Shown here in pieces: positions 19,767-28,437 of a DNA stretch of 38,734 nucleotides. Both the position numbers and the translations under genes were made by a program. The stretch lies in NCBI GenBank assembly GCA_029862125.1, contig JAOTXY010000027.1, forward strand, positions 1 through 38,734, read 5' to 3'. Numbering within the stretch: the first letter of the stretch is position 1; each line of letters starts with the position of its first letter. Under the pieces are notes generated by a model. That model saw only the letters and a program-made list of their open reading frames with translations. It had not been told where the DNA came from and made no database searches. The stretch is from Gammaproteobacteria bacterium (lineage in GTDB: Bacteria > Pseudomonadota > Gammaproteobacteria > GCA-001735895).

Positions 19767-22112
19767 GTGCGAATAAGAAAGCCTGTTTTCAGATCCGTCC
19801 AATTACTGCCTGGGCTGTTGTTTTGCTGGATATTCCTCGGCATTTCATCGCCGGTTTCGGCGCAAATGGTACCACCGGACAGAGATGAATCCGCCGCTGT
19901 CGAGATCCCCGAGAACCTGACCCGGGAGCAGGTGCGTGACCTGATCGCGCGCCTGTCCGATGATCAGGTGCGCAAACTGATTATTAACCAGCTCGACAAG
20001 GCAGCAATCGATGAGGAGCAGGCCGCGCTCGAAACCGCGTACGTCGGGCATCTGCGCGAGGGCATCCACTCTGCCAAGCGATCACTCGTGCGTGTATTTA
20101 CATCCGAAGACTCGATTCATGCGCTACCGGCAAAAATCTGGCACGGGATTACTGACAATGGCCGCACCAGCGGTACCTTCCTGCTGTTTCAACTCCTGGG
20201 CTTGTTATTTGCGGGATTTGCGGTCGAGCGATTGGCCAAAGGAATACTGGAAAGAACGACATCGAAACCGGTCGAGTTCGCGAGCCTGGGTAAGAAATTC
20301 GACCTGGCCTGCCTCGGCACGGCGCTGGGCCTGGTCGAGCTGGGAGCTTTTGCCGCTGGAGCCTATATTTTCGTTGCGATTTCGAGCCAGCACGCCCCTG
20401 CGGCACAAAGTTTCTGGCACGAGGTGATCATGTGCGTGTTGTTGATAAAACTGGTGCTGCTGGCAGTGCGCCAGGTCGCCGCCCCGAGTCGGCCCGAAGC
20501 GCGTCTGGTGATGATTACCGACGGTACCGCTCGGCAAGCCTGGGGCTGGGCGCTAATCCTGATGGCATCGATGGTCCTGCCGCTGCCCCTGATTCAGATA
20601 GCCGTTGAGTACAGCGCCAACGCCGACGAGGATCTGTTTCTGAATATTTTATTCCGCAGCATTTTCATAGTCGCAATCATCGTGCTGATCTTTCACCTGC
20701 GCCACTACGGCGCCGGGCTGATTGCGGGTGATCGTGAAAACGTCGGCGCAATGCGCCAAACGCTCGCACGAATCTGGTGGATGCTGGCGATCGTTTACAT
20801 AATACTGATCTGGCTCATGGCAATGGGGAAACGCGCCGCCACCGGCGAATCGTCGATGTTGCCGGGCCTCGGCAGCCTGGCTCTGTTCGCCGCAATTCCC
20901 TTCCTCGACATGGGACTAAAACAACTGGTGAACTGGTATTTTGAACCCAAACCCAACGACAACGAAGCCAGTGATGAAGCCTCGAGCGTAGACATTGCCG
21001 AGAGTGAAACTGCCATCGAGGCAGAAGCGCAACTCACAGCCAGTGCCGAAGAAGAGGTATCCGTGCCGCAAATCGAGGCCGGCTACAAAGCCATCGCGCT
21101 ACGCAAGCTCAGGGTGTTGCTGGTGCTCGCGTTGCTGGCAGTTTTCGTGCGCCTTTGGAACATTGATGTTGTGGCACTCACAGCACAACTGGTTGGCCAA
21201 CGTTTTGCGGGTGCGCTGTTCGATATCAGCCTGACGATTCTTCTGGCCTGGGCCCTATGGGGGGTTATCCGCATTTCGATCGAACGCAGGCTCGAAGAGG
21301 AAAAGGGACCCGAGACCGAAACCGAGGAAATCGAAGCCGGCGGCCTCGGCGGGACGCGTACCGAGACTATCCTGCCGTTGATCCGTGCCTTCATTAAGAT
21401 CACGTTGATCGTCATGACCGTGATGGTCTGCCTGTCGGCGCTCGGGGTTAACATTGGCCCGCTGATCGCCGGAGCCGGTGTGGTCGGTCTCGCAATCGGG
21501 TTTGGCGCACAAACGCTGGTGCGCGATATCGTCTCCGGATTTTTCTACTTGATGGACGACGCGTTTCGCATCGGCGAGTATGTCGTCATCGACCAGATTC
21601 GCGGTACGGTGGAAAAAATTTCGGTGCGCTCGTTTCAGCTGCGTCACCATAACGGTCCCGTGCATACCATCCCCTATGGCGAGATCCGCAGCCTGACCAA
21701 CTGGAGCCGCGACTGGGCGATCATGAAATGCGAGCTGCGCGTTCCGTTCGAAACCGATATCGAGAAAGTACGCAAGATGATCAAGAAGATTGGCATCGAA
21801 ATGATGGAAGACCCGCAGTGGGGGCCACTCATGCTGGGCCCGGTTAAATCGCAAGGCGTCAACCGCATGGACGATTCGGCGCTGATCATCCGCTTCAAGT
21901 TCATGGCGGTGCCGGGACAACAGTATTTGATCCGACGCGAGGCGTTTGCGCGCATCCAGCGCGCCTTCGAAGCCGCAGGCATCCACTTCGCACCGCGGCG
22001 CGTGCTGGTCGAGGCGACCACACCGAAGGAAGCGGTCGAGGCCGCGGGCGCGGTGCTCGATCAGGAAGTCGAAGGACAGAAAGGCGCGGCGCACAAAGCC
22101 GACGAGCCCTGA
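19767..22112 (+). CDS. MscS-family mechanosensitive channel, large type
   Basis: Inner-membrane channel of 781 residues, much longer than MscS (~286) and closer to the multi-helix YbdG/YbiO/MscK-like members. It starts at a GTG, and a signal sequence runs to SPVSAQ (about residue 32). The periplasmic domain at about 35-115 includes NLTREQVRDLIARLSDDQVRKLI. There are about eight hydrophobic helices, then the pore helix at about 565-590 (GAGVVGLAIGFGAQTLVRDIVSGFFYLMDD, with the Gly/Ala-packed face of MscS TM3). The beta domain DDAFRIGEYVVIDQIRGTVEKISVRSFQLR and the alpha/beta cytosolic vestibule to about 760 follow. An acidic cytosolic loop lies at about 393-435. It should gate on membrane tension and release osmolytes. 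The paralogous lipoprotein gene follows closely. Confidence 0.93.
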   Translation: MRIRKPVFRSVQLLPGLLFCWIFLGISSPVSAQMVPPDRDESAAVEIPENLTREQVRDLIARLSDDQVRKLIINQLDKAAIDEEQAALETAYVGHLREGIHSAKRSLVRVFTSEDSIHALPAKIWHGITDNGRTSGTFLLFQLLGLLFAGFAVERLAKGILERTTSKPVEFASLGKKFDLACLGTALGLVELGAFAAGAYIFVAISSQHAPAAQSFWHEVIMCVLLIKLVLLAVRQVAAPSRPEARLVMITDGTARQAWGWALILMASMVLPLPLIQIAVEYSANADEDLFLNILFRSIFIVAIIVLIFHLRHYGAGLIAGDRENVGAMRQTLARIWWMLAIVYIILIWLMAMGKRAATGESSMLPGLGSLALFAAIPFLDMGLKQLVNWYFEPKPNDNEASDEASSVDIAESETAIEAEAQLTASAEEEVSVPQIEAGYKAIALRKLRVLLVLALLAVFVRLWNIDVVALTAQLVGQRFAGALFDISLTILLAWALWGVIRISIERRLEEEKGPETETEEIEAGGLGGTRTETILPLIRAFIKITLIVMTVMVCLSALGVNIGPLIAGAGVVGLAIGFGAQTLVRDIVSGFFYLMDDAFRIGEYVVIDQIRGTVEKISVRSFQLRHHNGPVHTIPYGEIRSLTNWSRDWAIMKCELRVPFETDIEKVRKMIKKIGIEMMEDPQWGPLMLGPVKSQGVNRMDDSALIIRFKFMAVPGQQYLIRREAFARIQRAFEAAGIHFAPRRVLVEATTPKEAVEAAGAVLDQEVEGQKGAAHKADEP

Positions 22113-24047: not shown

Positions 24048-25718
24048 ATGACGAACTTTGAATCCCAACTGCGCCTCGGCACCGGACTCATCCTGGCATT
24101 ATACGTGGTGCAGCACCTGGTTAACCATAGCTTTGGCATCGTTTCGATCGAGGCCGCGGAAGCTTATCGCCAGACCGTGGGAGCAATGTTCCAAAACCTG
24201 CCAGGACAGGTCTTGCTTTACGGCTCACTGCTGTTTCATGCCTCCATTGCATTGCGGTCGATTTACCGGCGTTCGAGCCTGCGCATGTCGCTATGGCAAT
24301 CTCTGCAATTGTTGCTGGGCCTGTCTATCCTGCCGCTGGTGGTTGGGCACGCCGTCAGTAATCGTGGTTATGATCTGCTCGGGGACATCGACCCCAATTA
24401 TTACTACGTGGTCACTTCCCTGGCATTGAAACCGGTGGTGCTGGCCAAACTAGTGCTGCTGATTTCAGTGATCTGGATTCACATGGTCATCGGTCTGCAC
24501 TTCTGGCTGCGAATTAAAAACGGCTACCAGCGTTATGTACCCTATGCCTACACGCTGGTGGTCCTGGTGCCAGCGCTCGCCTATGTCGGTTTGTTCAGCA
24601 TGCTGCAACAGGCCAGCACCTGGCTCGATGACCAGCAACGACTCGATCAGATCTACGCGGCGAATACTGCAATGGACCCGCGAGATGTAGAATTATTACG
24701 CGGACTCGAGCTACAAGCCTGGATTGTCATGGCCGCCTTGCTGGTCCTGACATTGATTGCGCGCCAGTTCAGGCTATGGTACCAGGCGCGCCAGGGCACC
24801 TACTGCATTACCCACAGCGACGGTGCCAAAGTCCGGGCATTGAACGGGGTTTCGCTGCTCGAGGCGTTGCGCAATGCTCGTATCCCGCACGCGTCGGTTT
24901 GTGGCGGGCGTGCGCGTTGCACCACCTGTCGCGTGCACGTTGGCAGCGGCCTGGCGGAGCTCGATCCACCCAACGAACTGGAAGCGAAGGCGCTAACACG
25001 TATCAAGGCCAGCGAGGATGTTCGTCTCGCTTGCCAATTGCATCCGAAATCGGATCTCGAGATAACTCCGTTGGTGATGGCGAATCAATCACTCAGCGCT
25101 ACCTTACACAGCGGTGGTGTTGGGGGTCACGAAGAGTACGTGGTTTCGATGTTCGTCGATATGCGCGGCTCGACCAACCTCGGCGAGCGCGTGCTGGCCT
25201 ACGATGTGGTATTTATCCTGAATCGTTTTTTCACCGAACTTTCCAGCGCACTATCGGATTCAAACGGCCACTATGCCCAATTTGCCGGAGACGGCCTGAT
25301 GGCATTGTACGGGCTCGATCCCGAGCACAAGTCACGCGCCTGCCAGGATGCACTCGACGGCGCGCGCGAAATGTTTCGCCGTATCGATAAATTGAACGAT
25401 CAGTTAAAACGCGAATTCGGCGAAAGCATTCAGATGGGCATCGGCATTCACGGCGGCGACGCCATCGTCGGCACCATGGGACCGCCAAAAACCCCACTGC
25501 TGACCGCGGTCGGTGACAACGTCAATATTGCCGCGCGGCTCGAGTCGCAAACCAAGGAAATCGGTTGTGATTTGATCGTTTCGGTGTCAACCCTGGAAGC
25601 AGAGTCCATCGACTTTCCGGCCGATAATGTGCGGCAGGTAGAAGTCCGCGGCCGCGATAATCATGTGCGCGTCTGCACCTTCAGCCGTGACCAGTTTCCC
25701 GGAGGCAATCAAGACTGA
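24048..25718 (+). CDS. Membrane class III nucleotide cyclase with cytochrome b-like anchor and [2Fe-2S] domain
   Basis: Predicted redox-responsive adenylate or guanylate cyclase, 556 residues. Residues 1-245 hold about six helices resembling succinate dehydrogenase cytochrome b subunits; H23, H27, H64, H101, H145 and H151 lie in or near helices and could ligate heme b. Residues ~250-345 form a ferredoxin domain with C285-x5-C291-x2-C294 and C329, the adrenodoxin-type spacing. Residues ~362-550 form a class III catalytic domain: metal aspartates D371 (FVDMRGSTN) and D415 (FAGDGLMALYG), and transition-state N493 and R497 (GDNVNIAARLES). The substrate-specifying Lys is replaced by Q411, and the second specificity position is T486, as in class IIIb enzymes. 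This suggests electrons from the quinone pool or periplasm control cyclic-nucleotide output. Confidence 0.88.
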   Translation: MTNFESQLRLGTGLILALYVVQHLVNHSFGIVSIEAAEAYRQTVGAMFQNLPGQVLLYGSLLFHASIALRSIYRRSSLRMSLWQSLQLLLGLSILPLVVGHAVSNRGYDLLGDIDPNYYYVVTSLALKPVVLAKLVLLISVIWIHMVIGLHFWLRIKNGYQRYVPYAYTLVVLVPALAYVGLFSMLQQASTWLDDQQRLDQIYAANTAMDPRDVELLRGLELQAWIVMAALLVLTLIARQFRLWYQARQGTYCITHSDGAKVRALNGVSLLEALRNARIPHASVCGGRARCTTCRVHVGSGLAELDPPNELEAKALTRIKASEDVRLACQLHPKSDLEITPLVMANQSLSATLHSGGVGGHEEYVVSMFVDMRGSTNLGERVLAYDVVFILNRFFTELSSALSDSNGHYAQFAGDGLMALYGLDPEHKSRACQDALDGAREMFRRIDKLNDQLKREFGESIQMGIGIHGGDAIVGTMGPPKTPLLTAVGDNVNIAARLESQTKEIGCDLIVSVSTLEAESIDFPADNVRQVEVRGRDNHVRVCTFSRDQFPGGNQD

Positions 25719-25775: not shown

Positions 25776-26771
25776 ATGCAACAAAGAAAAATCGGCCCTT
25801 TTTCCGTTTCCGCGATCGGCTTCGGCTGTATGAACGTGTCGATGGGTTACGGCCCACGCATCGACGAAGCCGAAGCCGGCAAGCTGTTCAATGCCGCACT
25901 GGACCAGGGTTACACCTTTCTCGACACCGCGTCCCTGTATGGCCTCGGTCATAACGAGAGCCTGATCGGCGAGTACCTCGCTAGTCGACGTGACGAGTAT
26001 GTGCTCGCAAGCAAGTGCGGATTTTCCCGCACCGAGGATGGCAACACGGTGATGGATGGTCGCCCCGAAATCCTCGCGCAAACCTGCGAGGACAGCCTGC
26101 GGCGGTTGAACACCGACGTGATCGACCTCTATTACCTGCACCGCATCGATCCGAAGGTGCCAGTCGAGGAAAGCGTCGGAGCACTGGCGCAACTGCTTGA
26201 ACAGGGCAAAATCAAAACCATCGGCCTGTCTGAAATCAGCTCGGAGAGCTTGCGGCGCGCACACGCGGTGCATTCGATCACCGCGGTTCAATCGGAGTAT
26301 TCGCTGTGGACCCGTACACCCGAGCGCAAAATCCTGGCAACCTGTGACGCACTGGGAATCGCCTTCGTATCTTTCTCGCCCCTGGCGCGGCAGTTTCTGA
26401 CCGGCAAGTGCCAGGATGTCACGACGGTGCTGGACGACGATATCCGCGCCACCATTGCGCGTCCGCGTTTTGAGCCGGAAAATTTTGCGCACAATGAAAA
26501 GTTGCTCATCCCCTTCGGTGAAATTGCAGCACGTCTCAGTTGCAGTATGGCGCAGCTGGCTTTGGCCTGGCTGCTCGCACAAGGCGATAACATCATCCCG
26601 ATTCCAGGCACCAAGCACATGGACTGGATGATCGAGAATGCGGGTGCTGATGATATCGAGCTGAGTTCCACCCTGGTTGATGAACTCGACCTGTTGATCA
26701 ACGAAAACACGGTCGCCGGAAACCGCTACACCGACGCGCTGATGGCGTCGACCGATTCAGAGAAGGATTAG
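25776..26771 (+). CDS. Aldo/keto reductase (Tas/YajO-like branch)
   Basis: Cytosolic NADPH-dependent reductase of 331 residues in the larger AKR branch that includes YajO, Tas and pyridoxal reductases. The tetrad is complete: D50, Y55, K80 and H122 (FLDTASLYGLGHNE, LASKCGF, YYLHRIDPKVPVEES). Other family phrases are KIKTIGLSEISSESLRRAH, VQSEYSLWTR, FVSFSPLARQFLTGK and the cofactor loop IIPIPGTKHMDWMIENAG. The next gene, the aconitase X large subunit, begins 6 bp later, so the three genes 25776-28437 form an operon. In that setting the reductase may act on a product of the dehydratase, for instance a cyclic imine or keto acid; this is inference. Confidence 0.9.
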   Translation: MQQRKIGPFSVSAIGFGCMNVSMGYGPRIDEAEAGKLFNAALDQGYTFLDTASLYGLGHNESLIGEYLASRRDEYVLASKCGFSRTEDGNTVMDGRPEILAQTCEDSLRRLNTDVIDLYYLHRIDPKVPVEESVGALAQLLEQGKIKTIGLSEISSESLRRAHAVHSITAVQSEYSLWTRTPERKILATCDALGIAFVSFSPLARQFLTGKCQDVTTVLDDDIRATIARPRFEPENFAHNEKLLIPFGEIAARLSCSMAQLALAWLLAQGDNIIPIPGTKHMDWMIENAGADDIELSSTLVDELDLLINENTVAGNRYTDALMASTDSEKD

Positions 26772-26776
26772 GGCAA

Positions 26777-28021
26777 ATGAAGTTAAGCCGTAAGGAACAG
26801 GCGATGCTCGATGGCGAGCTTGGCGAACCGCGGCGTTGGGCGATGGAGCACATGCTCCAGGTGGGTCGTTTCTTCGATGCCGTCGACTTCGTCGAAGTGA
26901 CACAGGCGCACATCATGGCCGATACCGAGTCGCTCGGCGAAGCCGGGGTCGCTTTCCTCGAGAACCTGATGGCCTACCCGCCAGGCGAACGCCAGGTGCG
27001 CATCCCGATGATTACCGATCCGCGCGGCATCGATTTTTGTCACTACCAACGCCTCAAGCAAACCGACGAGATGGCCGTGCTCGAACAGCGCACCATCGAA
27101 GCCTTCGAATCCATGGGCATCCTGATGACCAACACCTGCATCAACTACCAGACTATCATGCCGCCGGTGCGCGGTGAGCACCTTGCCTTCGGCGATACCG
27201 GCGTCGTCATCTACTGCAACAGCGTGCTCGGTGCCTATTCCAATTTCGAAGGTGGGCCGTCAGCGCTCGCCGCCGGATTGACAGGGCGCACCCCACGCTA
27301 CGGATTACATCTCGACCAGAATCGCAGGGCGACACGGCGCTTTCACATCGCGCATCAACCAGAGCATCTGTCTGACTGGGGTGCGCTCGGCGGCATCGTT
27401 GGGTCACACTCGGGATCCTACTGGGAAGTCCCGGTAATCGAAGGCATCGAATCCCTACCGGGATCCGATGAAATGAAACACCTGGGTGCCGCGATGGCGA
27501 GCTTCGGCTCGGTACCGCTGTTTCACCTGGTCGGCGTCACTCCGGAAGCGCCCACCCTGGAATCGGTTTGTGATCCCGTATCGCTTGAAGCTGAAGTCAT
27601 CGGTGAAGCCGACCTCGAGGCCTTTTTCGCTCGCTATGGCGGCAAGGGTGAAAAAGTCGACGTGGTCGTTTTTTCCGCACCCCAGCTCTCATTGATGGAG
27701 ATGCAGTCACTCGCCGAGTTGCTCGATGGTAAAACACTGCATCGAGATACCGACCTGCTCGCAGTGACAAGCCCGGTGGTCGCGGCCGATGCCCGCCGCT
27801 TGGGGCTGGTCGAGCGCATCGAATCCTCCGGCGCGTTAGTGCTCGAGGGCATGTGCTTCTACCAGAGCTACGCGCGCGAAATGGGCGAGGCCAACGGCTG
27901 GAAGCGGCTCATGACGAACTCGGTCAAGCTGACCAATATTATCGGTGGCTATGGTTACGAGCCGACGCTTTCCAACATGGAGAACTGTGTCGCGTCGGCG
28001 ATTGCCGGGGAGATTGTTTAA
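26777..28021 (+). CDS. Aconitase X, large (catalytic) subunit
   Basis: Catalytic subunit of the aconitase X type (formerly DUF521), 414 residues. The family comprises hydro-lyases; characterised bacterial members dehydrate cis-3-hydroxy-L-proline and archaeal ones dehydrate mevalonate 5-phosphate. Visible family parts: MLDGELGEPRRWAMEHMLQVGRFFDA at the N-terminus, TNTCINYQTIMPPVRGEHLAFGDTGVVIYCNSVLGAYSNFEGGPSALAAGLTGRTPRYG in the middle (active-site region with Cys residues near the substrate), and GWKRLMTNSVKLTNIIGGYGYEPT near the C-terminus. The small swivel subunit follows with a one-base overlap (TAATG), the expected two-gene arrangement. Proline-type substrate is the default guess, but no proline racemase or pyrroline reductase is nearby. 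Confidence 0.9.
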   Translation: MKLSRKEQAMLDGELGEPRRWAMEHMLQVGRFFDAVDFVEVTQAHIMADTESLGEAGVAFLENLMAYPPGERQVRIPMITDPRGIDFCHYQRLKQTDEMAVLEQRTIEAFESMGILMTNTCINYQTIMPPVRGEHLAFGDTGVVIYCNSVLGAYSNFEGGPSALAAGLTGRTPRYGLHLDQNRRATRRFHIAHQPEHLSDWGALGGIVGSHSGSYWEVPVIEGIESLPGSDEMKHLGAAMASFGSVPLFHLVGVTPEAPTLESVCDPVSLEAEVIGEADLEAFFARYGGKGEKVDVVVFSAPQLSLMEMQSLAELLDGKTLHRDTDLLAVTSPVVAADARRLGLVERIESSGALVLEGMCFYQSYAREMGEANGWKRLMTNSVKLTNIIGGYGYEPTLSNMENCVASAIAGEIV

Positions 28022-28437
28022 TGACAACAATCGAACTGAAGTGTCACGTTGGCGTTGGACCCGAGGTTTCGGGCGAGGCGCTCGTCACCGACGACAATTT
28101 TTCGGCGCGCTACGATCTCGACCGCATCGCCGGGATTTTTTCACGCCCGCAGCACAAGCTCGCGGGTCTTAGTTATGTCGACAAGATCATGGTGTTCAAC
28201 ACTGCCAAGGGCGGCGTCGCATCAGCCTGGATGCTGCACGAAATGAAGTCGCGCGGAATCGCACCCAGGGCGATCCTGTTCAACAACGTCAACCCGATCC
28301 TGGCGCAGGGCGCGGCGCTCGCTAACATGGCGCTGTGCGACCGCTTCGACGATGGCGATGTCACACAACTGATCAAAACCGGGGACCAGGTCAAGGTGAA
28401 TCCCGAGGCCGGTCGGGTGACGATTCGACGGGACTGA
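28021..28437 (+). CDS. Aconitase X, small swivel subunit
   Basis: Swivelling domain (formerly DUF126), 138 residues, that closes over the large subunit to form the active site. The conserved core is present: the start KCHVGVGPEVSGEALVTDDNFSARYDLD, SGxF-like segment AGIFSRPQHKLAGLSYVDKIMVFNTAKGGVASAWMLHEM (the TxKGGxxSA loop with the catalytic-type serine), and FNNVNPILAQGAALANMALCDRFD. The start at 28021 overlaps the last base of the large-subunit stop; the frame is open upstream within that gene, but no better initiation site exists. The stop is followed within a few bases by a stem-loop at 28438-28457. Confidence 0.9.
   Translation: MTTIELKCHVGVGPEVSGEALVTDDNFSARYDLDRIAGIFSRPQHKLAGLSYVDKIMVFNTAKGGVASAWMLHEMKSRGIAPRAILFNNVNPILAQGAALANMALCDRFDDGDVTQLIKTGDQVKVNPEAGRVTIRRD

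Follow-up and report, generated by a model that had tools for sequence, protein, structure and literature searches.

A putative redox-controlled class III nucleotide cyclase with a conserved glutamine at the substrate-lysine position in an uncultured gammaproteobacterial genus

The gene described here is a single intact open reading frame with an ATG start, located in a 38,734-nucleotide stretch of DNA (the window), and encodes a protein of 556 aa. Judged from its sequence and by analogy with characterized relatives, this protein is likely to be a membrane-bound CyaC-type class III adenylate cyclase under redox control, within a subgroup that carries Gln at the substrate-selecting Lys position (Gln-type). 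A six-helix membrane anchor, a [2Fe-2S] ferredoxin domain and a class III cyclase domain follow one another in this order (Table 1), the ligand and catalytic residues are conserved, and so is the Gln subgroup.

The initial annotation had reported membrane His residues, adrenodoxin-type Cys spacing and a complete catalytic set in one chain. This combination is indeed seen in the reading frame, and all residue numbers given (C285, C291, C294, C329, Q411 and T486) are right upon indexing of the translation. As orthologues with 69 to 95% identity retain every one of the ligand, catalytic and substrate-position residues, this pattern is not due to chance. The description of the protein as a cytochrome b-like anchor joined to a ferredoxin domain and a class III cyclase is likewise supported by domain matches and conserved residues. 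An AlphaFold model of the window protein, run together with three close homologues, reached a mean pLDDT of only 36 and was not taken into a fold search. A single-sequence scan of a collection of genome contigs recovered only four loci, all of the same genus, and a scan of the region upstream of the cyclase gene for promoters and terminators found none.

Table 1. Coordinates of the cyclase gene, its domains and related features (window positions unless a locus is named)
Feature	Coordinates	Strand	Basis
Complete cyclase gene (6TM anchor, Fer2, class III cyclase)	24048..25718	+	ORF and domain calls; full-length same-genus orthologues, 69-95% identity
Six-helix membrane anchor, residues 1-248	24048..24791	+	Hydropathy; positive-inside loops; invariant His
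[2Fe-2S] adrenodoxin/NqrF-type ferredoxin domain, residues 261-334	24828..25049	+	Pfam Fer2; NqrF model; conserved Cys
Class III nucleotide cyclase domain, residues 364-539	25137..25664	+	Pfam Guanylate_cyc; alignment to PDB 2w01/1wc0; family comparison
Q411 codon (Lys position in ordinary adenylate cyclases)	25278..25280	+	Residue indexing; 1wc0/2w01 alignment
Aldo/keto reductase and split (two-gene) aconitase X	25776-28437		
MscS-family gene	19767-22112		
Second-group member L034	G029:C1:642508-644157; related loci L027-L032		
Anchor-ferredoxin and MscS pairs	L110:2232-5602; L152:2769-6113; L195:2217-5614		
Membrane protein gene 5' of the L110 pair (G009)	L110:33-2228		

Hydropathy analysis of the anchor identified six hydrophobic stretches, with predicted helices at about residues 10-32, 52-70, 83-104, 124-152, 164-187 and 218-240. 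Nine columns are invariant across 39 diverse family anchors, and four of these are His: H23 in helix 1, H64 in helix 2, H101 in helix 3 and H145 in helix 4. Loss of the His ligands in homologues, which would have counted against a heme-bearing anchor, was not observed. Four invariant membrane His are what is expected, by sequence, for two hemes b, with H23/H101 probably forming the outer and H64/H145 the inner pair, a layout that resembles those of diheme succinate dehydrogenases and fumarate reductases. H27 and H151 were also considered as ligands; H151 varies and H27, while nearly invariant, is lost in four relatives, and H23 is for this reason the preferred candidate. The best PDB match of the anchor profile was succinate dehydrogenase subunit C (6lum_C), at a nonsignificant E value of 0.04; in this weak alignment H101 and H145 fall on SdhC His residues. 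The match to Pfam Sdh_cyt was similarly weak (best E value, 0.057). The predicted cytosolic loops bear Lys and Arg and almost no acidic residues, while acidic residues are more frequent in the outer loops; this positive-inside pattern agrees with cytosolic termini and predicts a cytosolic location for the ferredoxin and cyclase domains.

The ferredoxin domain was matched by Pfam Fer2 over exactly the residues listed in Table 1 (E value, 1e-8, over the curated cut-off), and its closest NCBIfam model was NqrF (residues 228-340; E value, 2.3e-12), a respiratory [2Fe-2S] subunit. The four Cys are spaced C-x5-C-x2-C-x34-C in the window protein and are kept in 78/78 related sequences, with a family-wide spacing of x5-x2-x33-36.

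The cyclase domain likewise coincides with a match to Pfam Guanylate_cyc (E value, 1e-15, over the curated cut-off). Alignment with Spirulina CyaC (PDB 1wc0) places the metal-binding residues at D371 and D415 and the transition-state residues at N493 and R497, and the metal Asp, Asn and Arg are retained across the window clade and all its orthologues where readable. The proposed replacement of the substrate Lys by Gln, with Thr as partner, was confirmed: a gap-free alignment sets Q411 opposite the substrate-selecting Lys of 1wc0 ('yaQfagDglmalyg' over 'vdKfvgDaimalyg'), T486 falls on its Thr partner, and no Lys aligns at position 411 in the subgroup. In PDB 2w01 the corresponding residue is Glu ('idEfmGD'); we take this entry to be the guanylate cyclase Cya2, and its record says adenylate cyclase. 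With Q411 and T486, the protein has neither the canonical adenylate cyclase pair (Lys with Asp or Thr) nor the canonical guanylate cyclase Glu, which occurs at this position in 0/78 relatives.

Whether Q411 is subgroup-specific had been left for an alignment to decide, and it does mark large conserved subgroups. Among 64 full-length family members the residue is Gln in 40, Lys in 21 and another in 3; as a Gln-type query was used to collect these relatives by similarity, the counts are not population frequencies. Gln is found in 19 of the 43 full-length members outside the window's genus and in each of the 21 genus members placed in the tree, of which 14 belong to the orthologous group of the window protein and 7 to a second group with 44% identity. 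Gln with a Thr partner also occurs in a clade that includes Cupriavidus and Burkholderia and in a second made up of further gammaproteobacterial genomes, with 'NQ[FL]' motifs, and a more distant group (L041, L042 and L044) combines Gln with Ser. The plasmid copies of Rhizobium etli, Phyllobacterium and Sinorhizobium sp. RAC02 are Lys-type. Two other positions follow the same division: residue 375 is Ser or Trp in 42/42 Gln-type sequences (S375 in the window protein) and Phe in 27/27 Lys-type sequences, and at residue 410 each of the three Gln groups has Ala or Asn where the Lys-types have Asp. By these comparisons Q411 is a conserved clade trait and not an oddity of the window protein, and a variant this stable and coordinated speaks for a functioning enzyme and against decay.

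The tree requires two changes for Gln, and a single origin is not rejected (p-AU, 0.458). A swapped-in cyclase domain was considered and discarded, as the cyclase domains of Gln-type and Lys-type members of the family group together in a single clade. At the Lys position, Gln is also present in L004 and L006, two unrelated cyclases from the same genome; as the general survey of class III cyclases was biased toward high-scoring Lys-types, we claim no background frequency of Gln. In three divergent members of the family (L091, L092 and L094), Ser, Ala or Thr replaces the Lys and the Asn is lost, and L092 lacks the Arg as well; from their sequences, these proteins probably combine an intact redox anchor with a cyclase that is inactive or altered. 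A further set (L075 to L084) consists mostly of short ferredoxin-cyclase proteins of about 300 aa without the heme anchor, and its tested members are sister to the anchored family in the tree.

The fixation of Q411 in whole clades and its covariation with residues 375 and 410, which looks coordinated near the active site, could mean that the Gln-type subgroup has a changed or relaxed nucleotide choice and forms cGMP or mixed cyclic nucleotides under redox control. Q411 removes a residue thought to select adenine, which weakens the case for a preference for ATP. We nevertheless consider such a change unlikely. The known guanylate cyclase signature is Glu and not Gln, as in Cya2, the partner residue remains Thr or Ser as in ordinary class IIIb adenylate cyclases, and Gln recurs in the unrelated cyclases of the same genome. 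In addition, Mycobacterium tuberculosis Rv0386 has Gln for the substrate Lys and acts chiefly as an adenylyl cyclase, with GTP turnover as a minor side activity. The architecture of Rv0386, which includes ATPase and HTH domains, differs from that of the window protein, and its partner residue is Asn. By analogy, cAMP is the most likely product.

Two other readings question either end of the molecule. A cyclase domain that is noncatalytic or very weak, with the redox module regulating something else, would fit the missing catalytic residues of L092 and L094 and the occurrence of anchor-ferredoxin modules without any cyclase, but the complete retention of metal Asp, Asn and Arg in the window clade makes this very unlikely. 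We give the least credence of all to the idea that the anchor does no redox chemistry and serves simply as a membrane tether or as a sensor of a lipid or ligand, a role put forward for other 6TM cyclase anchors. The likeness to SdhC is weak by sequence and the hemes are putative, as this idea would have it; against it stand the four invariant His at the positions expected of a diheme SdhC-type protein, the linked [2Fe-2S] domain with its fully conserved Cys, and a characterized homologue, Sinorhizobium meliloti CyaC, that has two hemes b.

If the protein is a redox-controlled adenylate cyclase, electrons would pass between the protein and the quinone pool, possibly close to the outer face of the membrane, equilibrate over the outer (H23/H101) and inner (H64/H145) hemes b and then reach the cytosolic [2Fe-2S] domain adjoining the catalytic domain. 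The charge or shape of the cluster could alter the pairing of the two cyclase domains in a homodimer and switch cAMP synthesis on (when oxidized, by analogy with CyaC) or off. We infer the heme content, the His pairing, the direction of the switch and ATP as the main substrate from these comparisons. One of the cNMP-binding proteins encoded in the genome would then read the cAMP formed; with 14 matches to cNMP-binding domains alongside 16 to class III cyclases, the genome has cAMP receptors at hand. Of the earlier proposal that the molecule reads quinone or periplasmic redox state and adjusts cAMP or another cyclic nucleotide, it is the quinone part that gains support, through kinship with S. 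meliloti CyaC.

In the orthologous loci of the genus, the cyclase gene is usually divergent from a gene for a metallo-beta-lactamase-fold protein with a signal-peptide-like start. Directly downstream in the window lie genes for an aldo/keto reductase and a split aconitase X, and this order is kept in most genus orthologues. The second genus group (about 44% identity) has the same architecture in another gene context, with Q411 and Ser at position 486, and one genome (G029) carries both the window-type and the second-group cyclases.

An MscS-family gene (781 aa) is located 2 kb upstream of the window cyclase. G004 retains it close to the cyclase (61% identity), and it is missing from several orthologous loci. 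Stand-alone anchor-ferredoxin proteins without a cyclase were found in three distantly related Pseudomonadota (L110 in G009, L152 in G137 and L195 in G786), each encoded directly 5' of, and overlapping or abutting, a large MscS-family channel gene. The three paired channels share 40 to 50% identity over nearly their full length, and the window MscS is 43 to 46% identical to them over the channel core. A redox-coupled channel is conceivable from this pairing, which may be fresher than the cyclase architecture; a literature search for the combination of anchor-ferredoxin and MscS returned nothing relevant. In G009, a gene for a 731-aa membrane protein with GGDEF-EAL domains recognized by eye precedes the pair by a gap of 3 bases, which suggests one operon with c-di-GMP signaling.

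Redox-controlled cyclases of the CyaC kind would, on this evidence, occur across an uncultured gammaproteobacterial genus, with the window copy in a conserved neighborhood. The split between Lys-type and Gln-type clades offers a compact natural experiment on nucleotide choice in class III cyclases. An altered or relaxed choice in the Gln-type is possible from its sequence, and if the Gln-type turned out to favor a different nucleotide, the respiratory chain would be linked to a second messenger that is not cAMP.

That related heme-anchor cyclases had been described before is borne out by two systems. Cluster 1 of the 6TM-ferredoxin class IIIb adenylate cyclases, with Rhodopseudomonas palustris Q132R4 as its type, was based on 30 alpha- and betaproteobacterial sequences according to the part of the 2016 eLife account that describes it (PMC4821796). 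As portrayed there, cluster 1 shares with the window protein a cytochrome b-like anchor with spaced His, a ferredoxin module and a class IIIb cyclase, and the split between Gln and Lys goes unmentioned in that part of the account; unlike this alpha- and betaproteobacterial set, the window protein comes from an uncultured gammaproteobacterial genus. The architecture is already known, and the Gln subgroup is a sound detail and not yet a new function. The named members carried on plasmids of Rhizobium, Sinorhizobium and Phyllobacterium are of the Lys-type. Their identity to the window protein is only about 36%, which, together with the subsignificant SdhC match, counts against the CyaC-type reading. 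No CycR-type regulator was found among the annotated neighbors of the window gene. S. meliloti CyaC (SMc01818) is a diheme-B, [2Fe-2S], quinone-responsive and cAMP-forming enzyme that is activated by oxidation (PMC10463352). Compared by its description, it has the same parts in the same order as the window protein, namely, a hexahelical anchor, a [2Fe-2S] domain and a C-terminal class III cyclase.
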